A stretch of DNA of 64,000 nucleotides from Thauera propionica (GTDB taxonomy: Bacteria > Pseudomonadota > Gammaproteobacteria > Burkholderiales > Rhodocyclaceae): positions 248,001-312,000 of the forward strand of contig NZ_NOIH01000003.1 in assembly GCF_002245655.1 (NCBI RefSeq), read 5' to 3'. The first letter of the stretch is position 1; the number at the start of each line of letters is the position of its first letter. A model generated the notes under the pieces. The model did no database searches. It was given only the letters and a program-made list of their open reading frames with translations, and was not told the origin of the DNA. This document shows positions 48,208 through 52,295 of this stretch, in pieces. Position numbers and translations under genes: made by a program.

Positions 48208-49275
48208 ATGAAGATCCTGACCCCATCGCCTGCCGAACTGACCCTTGGTCGCGCGGCCACGCCGATCGCTTTCATCCGCGCGATCGTCACCGGCTACCGC
48301 CGACTGGGCATGGATCCCGCCAAGGCGCTCGCCCAGGCGCAGATCCCGCCCGCACTGCTGGACGACCCCGACGCACGCGTTACCGCGGCGCAGATGGAAG
48401 TGATGTCGGGCGCGGCGATGCAGGAACTCGACGACGAGACCCTGGGCTGGTTCTCGCGGCGGCTGCCCTGGGGCAGCTACGGCATGCTGTGCCGCGCCTC
48501 GCTCACCGCGCCGACGCTGGAAGTGGCGCTCAAGCGCTGGTGCCGGCACCACCGCCTGCTCACCGACGACATCGTGCTCACGTTCAACCAGCAGCGCGGC
48601 AGCGCCACCATCCGCATCGTCGAGCACACCGCGCTGGGCGAGTTGCGCGAGTTCTGCCTCGTCTCCACCCTGCGCTACCTGCTGGGCTACGCCTGCTGGC
48701 TGGTGGATTCGCGCATTGCGCTCGCCGAGACCACCTTCCCCTTCCCCGCCCCGCGCCACGCCGACGCCTACCACTACCTGTTCCCCGGCCCGGTGCGTTT
48801 CGACGCCGATGCCGCGAGCCTGTCTTTCGATGCGCGCTATCTCGAACTGCCGGTGCGGCGAGACGAAAAGGCGCTGCAGGCCATGCTTCAGCGCGCGCTG
48901 CCACTCACCGTGCTGCAGTACCGCCGCGACCGCCTGCTGGTCCATAGCGTCGCCCAGATCCTGGTCGCCGATGCCGCGGCCGCGCACACCGCCGAGGACG
49001 TCGCCGCCCAACTCAACACCTCGGTCCGCACCCTGCACCGGCAGTTGAAGGAAGAAGGCGTGTCACTGCAGCGGCTGAAGAACGAGGCCCGACGCGAACG
49101 CGCAATCAAGCTGCTGCTACAGACCCGCAAGCCGGTGAAACAGGTCGCGGCCGCGGTGGGTTTCGACAGCGAGAAGAGCTTCGCGCGGGCGTTCCGGGAG
49201 TGGACCGGAGTGGCGCCGAGCGCCTACCGGACGGGCGCTCCAGCGAAAACGTCGCAGCCTGCGCCGCCGCGCTGA
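48208..49275 (+). CDS. AraC-family regulator divergent from the liu operon
   Basis: A 355-residue regulator. The large N-terminal arabinose-binding-like domain (PF12625 type; ...[22 protein letters not shown]) senses an unknown ligand. The C-terminal double helix-turn-helix (about 255-345) contains [32 protein letters not shown] and [29 protein letters not shown]. The divergent position 161 bases from liuA suggests it controls leucine degradation, whereas many other bacteria use a MerR-type LiuR. ATG 48208 is preferred over GTG/ATG codons at or after 48160. Confidence 0.88.
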
Positions 49276-49286
49276 TTTCGCCAGAC

Positions 49287-50357
49287 TCACCCCGACGAGG
49301 GCGTCAACACCGCATCGATTGCCCTCACCACCGCCGCACTCACCGCCTGCCAGTTGGCGTTGTCGATGCGCGGGGTCTGGTAGCGCAGCAAGGGCCTGAG
49401 CGCCTCGGGCAAGGCGTCTTCCGGGGGCAACTGGGCGTCGTCCACCAGCACGGGCAGGATGCGCTTCTGCCCTGCAAGCAGGGACTCGATTTCGAACCGC
49501 AACACGTCGCCCTCGTCCCACAATCGCGGCCGGCCCTGTGCGTCAGCCGCCATGAAGCCGCGCCCGATCAGCACCACGCCGACCTTGCTTGCCGCGATCG
49601 CCCCACCGATCGTCTCGCGCCAGTCCGCACTCGGGTCGATGCCGTGCAGGTCCATGAACACGCGACGCGCGCCGAAATGCTCGATCAGGTCGTCGCGCAG
49701 GCGGCCGGCGGCCATGCCGGTGTCCGCACGGCGGTAGGAGATGAAGATGTCGGCCTGCCCGGCAAGCGTACCCAGCAGTAGCCGCGCAAGCGGCCCGGTG
49801 CTGTTGATCCAGGGCACGGCCAGGCTCAGGAACTGCGTCTGGCTCAGCCCCGGCACGGGCGCCTCGCCCCAGGTCCGCAGGATCTCGTGGAACACCTCGC
49901 GCGACTCGCCGCCGGCGAAGGGAATCGGCAGCACCGGCTTGCCGGCGTCGATGAAGCGCCGCGCAATGGCAAGCGAGCCACTGCGCCCGCCGATCATCAC
50001 CGCGGCGCCGGCACGCCCGATCGCCTGCTCGATCCAATCGTCGTAGTCCGACAGGCGCACGGTGCACTCGGCCGGCGCGGCAAAGCCCTCGCCCGGCAGG
50101 AAGTAGCCACGCTGGAAGTGCGGCAGCCACAGCTGCAGGTAGCCCGACCCCGGCGCCAGGCCCCGGCGCAGGCATTCCGCCCAGAAGGCACGCGCGGCGA
50201 CGCTATCCACCCCCGGCGTGTTGCCGGTGATCAGCCCGAATCCGCTGCGCGCCAGCTCGCGCCCCACCATGTCGGCCAGGCGTCGGAACGGCCGATACCA
50301 CGGCAGCGGAAGGCTGAAGGTGGTGCCAACGACGAGGATGTAAGGGTAGGCCGGCAT
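49287..50357 (-). CDS. SLOG-TIR fusion protein, putative nucleotide-signalling/immune protein
   Basis: A 356-residue cytoplasmic protein with two parts. Residues 5-150 form a Rossmann-like domain of the SLOG/LOG type: YILVVGTTFS, ELARSGFGLITGNTPGVD, a Trp/Tyr-rich insert, AVMIGGRSGSLAIARRFIDAGKPVLPIPFAGGES. After a linker (about 155-200), residues 203-325 are a TIR domain: DIFISYRRADTGMAAGRLRDDL, RRVFMDLHGIDP, WRETIGGAIAASKVGVVLIG, and VLRFEIESLL with the likely catalytic Glu289. TIR domains of this class cleave NAD+ or make cyclic ADP-ribose isomers, and SLOG domains bind such products. Its activity here is inferred. It is convergent with the AraC gene, with an 11-base gap. Confidence 0.82.
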   Translation of the reverse strand: MPAYPYILVVGTTFSLPLPWYRPFRRLADMVGRELARSGFGLITGNTPGVDSVAARAFWAECLRRGLAPGSGYLQLWLPHFQRGYFLPGEGFAAPAECTVRLSDYDDWIEQAIGRAGAAVMIGGRSGSLAIARRFIDAGKPVLPIPFAGGESREVFHEILRTWGEAPVPGLSQTQFLSLAVPWINSTGPLARLLLGTLAGQADIFISYRRADTGMAAGRLRDDLIEHFGARRVFMDLHGIDPSADWRETIGGAIAASKVGVVLIGRGFMAADAQGRPRLWDEGDVLRFEIESLLAGQKRILPVLVDDAQLPPEDALPEALRPLLRYQTPRIDNANWQAVSAAVVRAIDAVLTPSSG

Positions 50358-50519: not shown

Positions 50520-51305
50520 ATGTCACGCACGCCGCTGCTGTTACTTCTCGTCCTGGCGATGCTGTCCTCACCCGTCGCATGGGCCGCGGATAAATCCTGC
50601 GCAATCGTGCTGATGCACGGCAAATGGGGCAATCCACGCTTCGTGGCCGGCTTCGGTGAAGCCCTGTCGGACCTGTGCGAGTACGAGTCGCTGGAAATGC
50701 CGTGGTCGCAGCGGCGCAACTACGACGCCGACTACACCGAGGCCTTGGCCGAGATCGCGCGCCAGGTCACGCGTTTCCGCGAGCAGGGCTTTCAGCGAGT
50801 CATCGTGGCGGGGCACAGTTTCGGCGCCAATGCGGCGATCGCATACATGGCAAACCACGGCGACGCGGATGGCGTCATGGCGATCGGCCCGGGGCATACA
50901 CCGGAGATCTTCTACGAGCGCGGGCGGACCCGCGAGTCGGTCGACCAGGCCCGCGCGATGGTGAATGAGGGCAAGGGCGAAGAGACCTCAGGCTTCCACG
51001 ACATTAACCAGGACAGGGAGCAGAAGATCCGGATGCGTGCCCGCATCTACCTGAGCTACTTCGACCCGGACGGGATCGGCAACATGGGGCGATCGGCAGA
51101 TGGCTTTTACAAGGCGGTTCCGTTCGCATGGATCATCGGCACCAGCGATCGACTCAGCAGGGGCGGTCCGCAATACGCGCACGCCCGCGCCCCGGAACAC
51201 CCGAAAAGCGCCTACCTGGAGGTCTCCGCGGACCATGTCAGCGTACTCGACGCGCCGGGCCGGCAAGCGGCGCGGGAATGGCTGCTGAGCCTCGACGCGA
51301 ACTGA
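50520..51305 (+). CDS. Secreted alpha/beta hydrolase
   Basis: A 261-residue exported protein. The signal peptide (PLLLLLVLAMLSSPVAWA-AD) is cleaved near residue 22. The hydrolase fold follows, with IVLMHGKWG as oxyanion loop, nucleophile Ser100 in VIVAGHSFGANAAIAYMA, and a C-terminal SADHVSVLDAPG with the triad His. The substrate is unknown. AGAGGAGG nine bases before ATG 50520 fixes the start; an upstream ATG at 50481 lacks one. It is divergent from the SLOG-TIR gene across 162 bases. Confidence 0.86.
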   Translation: MSRTPLLLLLVLAMLSSPVAWAADKSCAIVLMHGKWGNPRFVAGFGEALSDLCEYESLEMPWSQRRNYDADYTEALAEIARQVTRFREQGFQRVIVAGHSFGANAAIAYMANHGDADGVMAIGPGHTPEIFYERGRTRESVDQARAMVNEGKGEETSGFHDINQDREQKIRMRARIYLSYFDPDGIGNMGRSADGFYKAVPFAWIIGTSDRLSRGGPQYAHARAPEHPKSAYLEVSADHVSVLDAPGRQAAREWLLSLDAN

Positions 51306-51812: not shown

Positions 51813-52295
51813 ATGGACCTGCCCGCCCACCAGCTCACCATGACCGTCCTGATGACGCCCGACACCGCCAACTTCTCGGGCAAGGTGCACGGCGGCGCCA
51901 TCCTCAAGCTGCTCGACCAGGTCGCCTACGCCTGCGCCGCGCGCTACGCCGGCCACTACGTCGTCACGCTCAGCGTCGACCAGGTGATGTTCCGCCAGCC
52001 CATCCACGTCGGCGAACTCGTCACCTTCCTCGCCTCGGTCAACCACACCGGCAATTCGTCGATGGAAGTCGGCATCAAGGTCGTCGCCGAGGACATCCGC
52101 GGCAAGGTCGTGCGCCACGTCAATAGCTGCTTCTTCACCATGATCGCGGTCGACGACGAAGGCCGCCCGACCAAGGTGCCGACGCTGGAACCCAGTACCC
52201 CGGACGAGCGCCGCCGTTTCGCCGAAGCCGAAGTGCGCCGCGCGATGCGGCGCGAGATGGAGCGCAAGTTCGCCGAGGTACACGGCGGGGAGTGA
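51813..52295 (+). CDS. Acyl-CoA thioesterase (YciA/BACH type hot-dog)
   Basis: A 160-residue hot-dog thioesterase. It has MTPDTANFSGKVHGGAILKLLDQVAY with the catalytic Asn/Asp region, VSVDQVMFRQPI-like LSVDQVMFRQPIHVGELV, and a basic helical tail. It hydrolyses acyl-CoA in the cytoplasm; the chain length cannot be inferred. ATG 51813 begins the family N-terminus (MDLPAHQLTMTVLMTP). It is an independent unit between the cupin and sdaA. Confidence 0.9.
   Translation: MDLPAHQLTMTVLMTPDTANFSGKVHGGAILKLLDQVAYACAARYAGHYVVTLSVDQVMFRQPIHVGELVTFLASVNHTGNSSMEVGIKVVAEDIRGKVVRHVNSCFFTMIAVDDEGRPTKVPTLEPSTPDERRRFAEAEVRRAMRREMERKFAEVHGGE

Follow-up and report, generated by a model that had tools for sequence, protein, structure and literature searches.

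Results

A SLOG-type fold and a TIR domain in one chain

The window, by which we mean the whole 64,000-nucleotide stretch of Thauera propionica DNA that was analysed, carries a gene for a protein of 356 amino acids on its reverse strand. The single intact chain has a SLOG-type fold at its N-terminus and a TIR domain at its C-terminus, and we call it SLOG-TIR. The gene, its motifs and its closest neighbours are as follows.

48208..49275, forward strand: AraC-type regulator, one edge of a variable slot, convergent on the SLOG-TIR gene and 11 bp from it
49287..50357, reverse strand: SLOG-TIR coding sequence (P0001), 356 amino acids, ATG start, no internal stops
49302..49751, reverse strand: TIR domain, residues 203-352
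49491..49493, reverse strand: codon of Glu289, the predicted catalytic residue
49503..49505, reverse strand: codon of Val285, at position -4 from the predicted catalytic Glu; 7/7 SLOG-TIR members have Val here
49728..49739, reverse strand: SYRR motif, residues 207-210, the same as in SARM1
49761..50357, reverse strand: residues 1-199, comprising the SLOG-type domain and its C-terminal extension
49956..49964, reverse strand: invariant ARR, residues 132-134, directly after Ile131, which aligns with ThsA E403
49977..49991, reverse strand: GG-x-x-G loop (GGRSG), residues 123-127, with one Arg at 125 or 126 in 7/7 members
50205..50216, reverse strand: PGVD motif, residues 48-51, after strand 2, with G49, V50 and D51 invariant in 7/7 members
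50520..51305, forward strand: alpha/beta hydrolase, divergent neighbour within the slot
51813..52295, forward strand: thioesterase-like gene (named by eye), the other edge of the slot

The flanking genes of the window are metabolic: an acyl-CoA dehydrogenase, the AraC regulator, the alpha/beta hydrolase and a cupin were assigned with Pfam, the thioesterase and a serine deaminase by eye. A scan for promoters and terminators found none. The alpha/beta hydrolase gave no tblastn match in eight homologue loci, and nothing ties it to the switch proposed below. An initial annotation had described a SLOG and a TIR domain in one protein among metabolic genes; the intact reading frame, the score of the TIR half and a SLOG fold recovered by both profile and model bear this description out.

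The TIR half keeps the predicted catalytic glutamate

Residues 204-312 match the Pfam family TIR_2 with 46.2 bits, above its curated cut-off of 28, which places the product among TIR domain proteins. SARM1 is the nearest solved TIR both by sequence (E 0.007) and by fold (TMt up to 0.89). Glu289 aligns with SARM1 E642 and fills the place where the catalytic Glu of TIR NADases is expected. This place, pointed out by the initial annotation, holds Glu in all seven full-length family members, and no loss was found across homologues. The same residue is present in 40 of the 40 TIR alignment rows that reach the position; these stand for 35 distinct places, five rows repeating a place and the script skipping rows that end short of the Glu. 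Y208-R209-R210 and Val285 are likewise invariant in 7/7 members. A search of PHROGs profiles with the window protein gave an E-value of 0.03 at best, for the TIR part only.

The residue four positions before the Glu sets the family apart. All 12 SLOG-TIR rows, 7 of them distinct, have Val here; among the other 28 TIR rows, Phe occurs in 16, Met in 4, Trp and His in 3 each, and Pro and Tyr in 1 each. The Trp that occupies it in AbTir-type makers of cADPR isomers is thus missing, Val285 standing in its place in 7/7 members. We take family position 285 to be that of the AbTir Trp, an equation that rests in part on the SARM1 alignment. Replacement of this Trp in AbTir strongly cut the formation of 2'cADPR, with some product remaining, as PMC10937652 describes.

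The SLOG half resembles ThsA, LOG and DprA

Sequence kinship of the N-terminal half emerges at the level of the family. Against the Pfam family LDcluster4, the window protein scores 22.3 bits and its SLOG half 23.5 bits, under the curated cut-off of 26.3. At E <= 1, LDcluster4 is matched by 6/6 SLOG halves of the family (best E 2e-6), Cap17-like_N also by 6/6 (best E 5e-4) and DprA by 3/6. A profile built from six SLOG halves, of which conflict-system proteins contributed two, finds in the PDB the LOG-like entries 1rcu (E 1e-7) and 1wek (2.5e-4), as well as SeThsA 7uxt, with a whole-sequence E of 6e-4 and 0.008 for the best stretch alone. In hhalign, the family profile matches the ThsA SLOG profile with a probability of 89-91%.

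Structure prediction points the same way. The AF2 models were built on six sequences; that of the SLOG half reached a pLDDT of 80.6 and a pTM of 0.83. The full-length model is weaker (pLDDT 74.9, pTM 0.56), and we therefore draw nothing from it on the packing or arrangement of the domains. Among the best 50 PDB rows returned by Foldseek for the SLOG model, the highest TMq, 0.68, belongs to the SLOG domain of BcThsA with 3'cADPR (7uxs_A); LOG enzymes in the same rows reach up to 0.63, so the lead of ThsA is slight, and the best E-value goes to the LOG-like plant protein 1ydh. Chains of the channel TRPM2, which contains an ADP-ribose-binding domain, also appear as weak matches. The predicted fold resembles the SLOG of ThsA, LOG and DprA, and fold and sequence kinship together place the domain in the SLOG superfamily. 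The likeness to ThsA-SLOG that had been proposed from the letters alone is supported by the model, and nothing in the residues or the predicted fold speaks against a SLOG-like pocket.

The ThsA ligand residues are not kept

ThsA R371, K388 and E403 coordinate 3'cADPR, according to PMC10022894. We aligned the SLOG set (the family with the two conflict-system SLOGs) to three ThsA SLOG segments, profile against profile, with BcThsA residue numbers counted by hand from 6lhx. The counterpart of R371 is residue 109, which reads I/I/I/T/K/K/K across the members. K388 has none and falls in an insertion just after residue 125. E403 corresponds to residue 131, which reads I/I/I/V/I/I/I. A basic group in this loop may persist through the Arg at 125 or 126, to judge from the alignment. 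Invariant in 7/7 SLOG halves are G11, T12, R25, R26, G45, G49-V50-D51, W108, G123, G124, G127, R133, R134 and W163.

The position of ThsA E403 is presumably also that of the catalytic Glu in the LOG motif PGGxGTxxE. This place is Ile or Val in 7/7 members, which does not agree with a LOG phosphoribohydrolase. LOG-type chemistry therefore looks lost, a replacement that argues for a non-catalytic SLOG sensor. The unconserved ThsA residues and Val285 together lower the probability that the protein makes and senses 2' or 3' cADPR, and would leave room for another ligand.

A small family with both halves under constraint

Six full-length homologues were found, with 93, 78, 60, 49, 47 and 49% identity to the window protein. 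Since all six keep both halves in the same order, the co-occurrence of the two domains is, judged from these sequences, not a product of chance. Eight loci of the family are known, seven of them full length: the window, G017, G001, L041 (an Acidobacteria MAG), L042 (Cognatazoarcus halotolerans), L043 (a Rhodocyclaceae MAG), L044 (a Zoogloeaceae MAG) and the partial G021/L040. Taken by itself, this set of relatives would probably make the host of the window gene a betaproteobacterium of the same circle.

The family is rare. Of 200 related genomes, 51 match the window protein at E <= 1e-5, and in five of these the SLOG half is matched, the others being reached through the TIR part only: the own genome (G000), G017 (93%), G001 (78%), G076 (49%) and G021 (89%, cut by a contig end). 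At the level of the genus, the gene is present in 4/29 genomes, the own included. A pattern scan of the genome contigs returned 105 stretches matching a pattern and five confirmed loci, two of which are those of G021 and G076. In 398 genomes of the phylum, the N-terminal profile revealed no further member; at most eight candidates per genome were scored, so that misses are possible, and the three genomes with a match owe it to the own gene, to DprA (L038) and to a YHS-LOG protein (L039), the latter two named by eye. Viral contigs and phage collections held no confirmed match to SLOG-TIR, leaving a viral origin unsupported.

Both halves look to be under purifying selection. Between the window and G017 (93% identity), dS is 0.217 and dN/dS 0.158, with 0.130 for the SLOG and 0.201 for the TIR half; between the window and G001 (78%), dN/dS is 0.285. 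The AraC neighbour has nearly the same values between window and G017 (dS 0.237, dN/dS 0.155), and the two genes seem to have been inherited together since the split of window and G017. The cupin and the thioesterase have a lower dS, 0.072 and 0.093, and the slot may therefore have recombined.

A variable slot between AraC and thioesterase

The AraC and thioesterase genes enclose a variable slot. In 15/29 genomes of the genus the two genes share a contig and lie at most 10 kb apart; gaps between them measure 181 bp (G003), 215 bp (G007), 2,537 bp (window) and 8,975 bp (G016). The SLOG-TIR gene sits inside the slot in G000 and G017. In the 13 remaining loci, the slot is free of genes in two (G003 and G007) and occupied by other genes, as seen by eye, in 11. 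In G021 the SLOG-TIR gene is 6.4 kb from the thioesterase, on the side facing AraC, with a trio of genes between the two; the end of the contig truncates it there. G001 has other flanking genes.

The slot also houses, in several genomes other than that of the window, a conserved gene for a protein of about 370-400 amino acids (L033:7190-8305, and by eye in L045, L048, L051, L053 and L054); its L033 copy has no Pfam match.

Gene calls by eye and tblastn revealed no tie of the homologues to one housekeeping pathway. The relatives occupy different loci and most of them stand alone, in keeping with the stand-alone gene first suggested for the window.

Neighbours of the relatives

No defence gene and no signal-making cyclase was recognised by eye among the called genes of the window. 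The earlier remark that no defence gene flanks SLOG-TIR is thus right for the window but does not extend to relatives such as G017, G021, L042 and L043. Past the thioesterase, G017 carries type I restriction genes along with a gene for a Fic protein. L042 is surrounded by a patatin, a TPR-S protein and an nSTAND6 metallophosphatase. L043 has an integrase and a PrimPol nearby and, 46 bp upstream, a second TIR protein. In G021, a trio of co-directional genes precedes SLOG-TIR; it encodes a patatin, a 968-aa protein and an LmuA/Avs1a-like MBL protein, and the spacers after the three genes measure 94, 13 and 23 bp, the last between MBL and SLOG-TIR. No defence neighbour was recognised near G001, L041 and L044, where the neighbours were scanned in part and L041 ends 215 bp past the gene.

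Two possible partners were considered and set aside. In G003 and G009, two genomes that lack SLOG-TIR, the trio is found outside the slot, beyond the thioesterase, and it is probably a separate system. The second TIR protein is not a fixed partner either, a like protein lying about 7.7 kb away in L036/L042. Defence-like genes thus occur beside the slot in genomes free of SLOG-TIR, for which reason we treat the neighbourhood as weak evidence and claim no enrichment.

Some of these neighbours deserve a record of their own. The set of patatin, ~970-aa protein and MBL protein recurs near the thioesterase (L035:756-6001 in G021, L059:4959-10142 in G009 and, by eye, L058:31-5151 in G003) and is a candidate defence system; its ~970-aa protein has no Pfam or PADLOC match in the L035 copy and no PDB match in the L059 copy. 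A DUF4062 protein is encoded outside the slot, beyond the thioesterase, at L060:7255-8325 (G026, scanned) and L061:8478-9548 (G007, with a similar start), both in genomes without the SLOG-TIR gene. The TIR protein with a C-terminal part that is hydrophobic by eye (L043:6740-7915, L036:3911-4897) has Trp where SLOG-TIR has Val.

The nearest kin found lie in conflict systems

Seven plasmid records match the window protein in tblastn, four through the TIR alone and three through the SLOG half. The latter, from two strains of Rhizobium phaseoli and one of Burkholderia stagnalis, show 33-35% identity (E 3e-12). These three are the closest SLOGs found outside the family. They form part of large proteins, with a SAV_2336-type annotation in Rhizobium, and both large proteins (L031:5865-9074 and L032:5352-9881) pass the LDcluster4 cut-off. 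Next to them are genes for VMAP-C proteins, of which the Burkholderia one has a caspase-like domain, and for an AAA/MoxR-type ATPase; the Rhizobium locus also has an EAD5-trypsin protein. The large Rhizobium protein has, in addition, a weak receiver-domain match.

In PMC7159879, the vWA-linked domains of NTP-dependent conflict systems include SLOG and TIR. The large SLOG proteins are taken to be the vWA-side component of such systems; Pfam called no vWA domain in them. In the Burkholderia protein, TIR_2 lies upstream of the SLOG in the same chain. As the SLOG comes first in our family and the TIR first in Burkholderia, LDcluster4-like SLOG and TIR domains appear to have been joined at least twice, in opposite orders. 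The strongest sign of an immune role of SLOG-TIR is that the nearest kin found have biological conflict as their context, a sign that speaks of kinship and not of function.

Discussion

A putative one-chain sensor-effector

SLOG-TIR looks like a single-gene switch, rare and movable, with an antiviral or stress role. The best explanation is a one-chain sensor-effector in which the SLOG binds a nucleotide, the TIRs assemble and NAD+ is hydrolysed; weighing sequences and models, we give it about an even chance. In the mechanism that we infer, which runs from ligand binding and oligomerisation through NADase activity to an antiviral role, the SLOG would act as a nucleotide-binding, probably non-catalytic sensor. 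It would bind a signal arising in phage infection or stress, our guess being a ligand of the ADP-ribose or adenine-nucleotide type. The bound SLOG would change shape or drive oligomerisation, bringing the C-terminal TIRs together, and the assembled TIR would cleave NAD+ via Glu289, so that growth stops. Cat1, a CARF-TIR protein, could serve as a working model for such a chain (PMC12162218).

The initial annotation had left two roles for the single chain, either to make and sense its own signal or to sense a nucleotide and then destroy NAD+. The latter fits the sequences better, and the former is weakened by the unconserved counterparts of R371, K388 and E403 and by Val285 in 7/7 members at the presumed cyclisation Trp; the one-chain sensor-effector is preferred to a protein that responds to cyclic ADP-ribose of its own making. 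The same residues count against a self-amplifying switch, whose SLOG would bind an ADP-ribose derivative made by its own TIR in a positive feedback. It could appeal to the ThsA-SLOG likeness and to the TRPM2 chains in the fold list, but we hold it very unlikely. There is also a slim chance of a self-contained switch whose SLOG responds to a nucleotide derived from NAD, possibly non-cyclic and self-made, and ignites NAD+ hydrolysis by the TIR; maker, sensor and killer would then share 356 residues, with a pocket unlike that of ThsA. That the TIR supplies an ADP-ribose-derived messenger to a receptor whose gene lies elsewhere, gated by the SLOG and comparable to Thoeris ThsB-type proteins, strikes us as unlikely: most relatives stand alone, the host genome G000 has no STALD match at E <= 0.001, and the presumed place of the AbTir Trp is Val. 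In its favour are the TIR protein with a hydrophobic C-terminal part just upstream in L043 and the products of Thoeris TIRs, namely 3'cADPR, N7-cADPR or His-ADPR (PMC12847820).

There are two further readings. The protein could be triggered by a phage or host protein or by DNA, recognised by a DprA-like SLOG, or it could be a house-keeping stress regulator that monitors NAD or nucleotide pools outside immunity. The DprA likeness of the SLOG half suits such a role, as do the metabolic neighbours, and the two other TIR genes of the host genome that we looked at also lie among metabolic genes; yet the patchy presence in the genus, the different loci of the relatives and the kin in conflict systems make it improbable. 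An enzyme pair, with the SLOG as an active nucleosidase or nucleotide hydrolase making the trigger and the TIR as effector, sits badly with the Ile or Val at the presumed LOG-Glu position, and we rate it as decidedly unlikely. It draws on the LOG-like fold, on the weak match of 6/6 SLOG halves to the Cap17-like ATP-nucleosidase domain and on a suggestion, in PMC7159879, that SLOG is a possible signal maker in vWA-MoxR systems.

Comparison with known systems

With Thoeris type I, in which ThsA is a SIR2-SLOG and ThsB a TIR protein, SLOG-TIR shares a SLOG of similar fold, a TIR and a likely NAD+ target. It differs in being one chain with the SLOG first, in having no SIR2 match and in not keeping the 3'cADPR residues. 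A STALD-type ThsA, which is absent from G000 by the search given above, was matched in 4/398 genomes searched, and the locus does not qualify as Thoeris type I. The STALD family of Burroughs et al. 2015 is said to underlie the naming of a SLOG-TIR class; STALD is absent from the Pfam matches of the window protein.

The best NCBIfam match of the window protein is ThcB4 of Thoeris type III (NF058526, E 4e-9), but its 35.7 bits lie far below the cut-off of 220. Seven true ThcB4 members were found. Their TIR is of the same Pfam family, whereas the six members compared by eye are shorter at the N-terminus and extended at the C-terminus, TIR_2 occupying residues 129-217 of 369 in one member. Given score and layout, we rejected an identity with ThcB4; NF058526 has no match in G000 at E <= 1e-15.

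The VMAP/MoxR/vWA systems share with SLOG-TIR the SLOG kinship and, in Burkholderia stagnalis, a chain with both TIR and SLOG. They are multi-gene systems with VMAP-C and MoxR, whereas the SLOG-TIR gene is small, stands alone and has its domains in the reverse order; no adjacent VMAP-C or MoxR gene was seen in the window, where four nearby genes were searched with Pfam and the others viewed by eye. A further comparison is with Cat1 of type III CRISPR, a nucleotide sensor fused to a TIR NADase (PMC12162218). Like SLOG-TIR, it joins a nucleotide-sensing domain and a TIR in one chain, but its sensor is a CARF served by Cas10 as signal maker; no such maker was recognised for SLOG-TIR.

The initial annotation was right that maker and sensor are separate proteins in Thoeris, but 'SLOG-TIR' immune systems had already been named as a class in print (PMC7824862), so the kind is already known. 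The shared idea is that of SLOG and TIR together in immunity, in a passage that does no more than name the class. A search of open-licence papers showed nothing on the present family, which is no proof of absence. What seems new, in the sense of not having come up in the open-licence literature searched, is the combination of an LDcluster4-like SLOG first and an SYRR-type TIR second in a stand-alone gene in which the ThsA pocket is not kept. PADLOC models match this single-gene candidate weakly and in part (best E 7e-5). Thoeris splits messenger maker and sensor between proteins; the compact SLOG-TIR with its altered pocket would be a simple system in which to learn which other nucleotides SLOGs sense and how sensing switches a TIR on.
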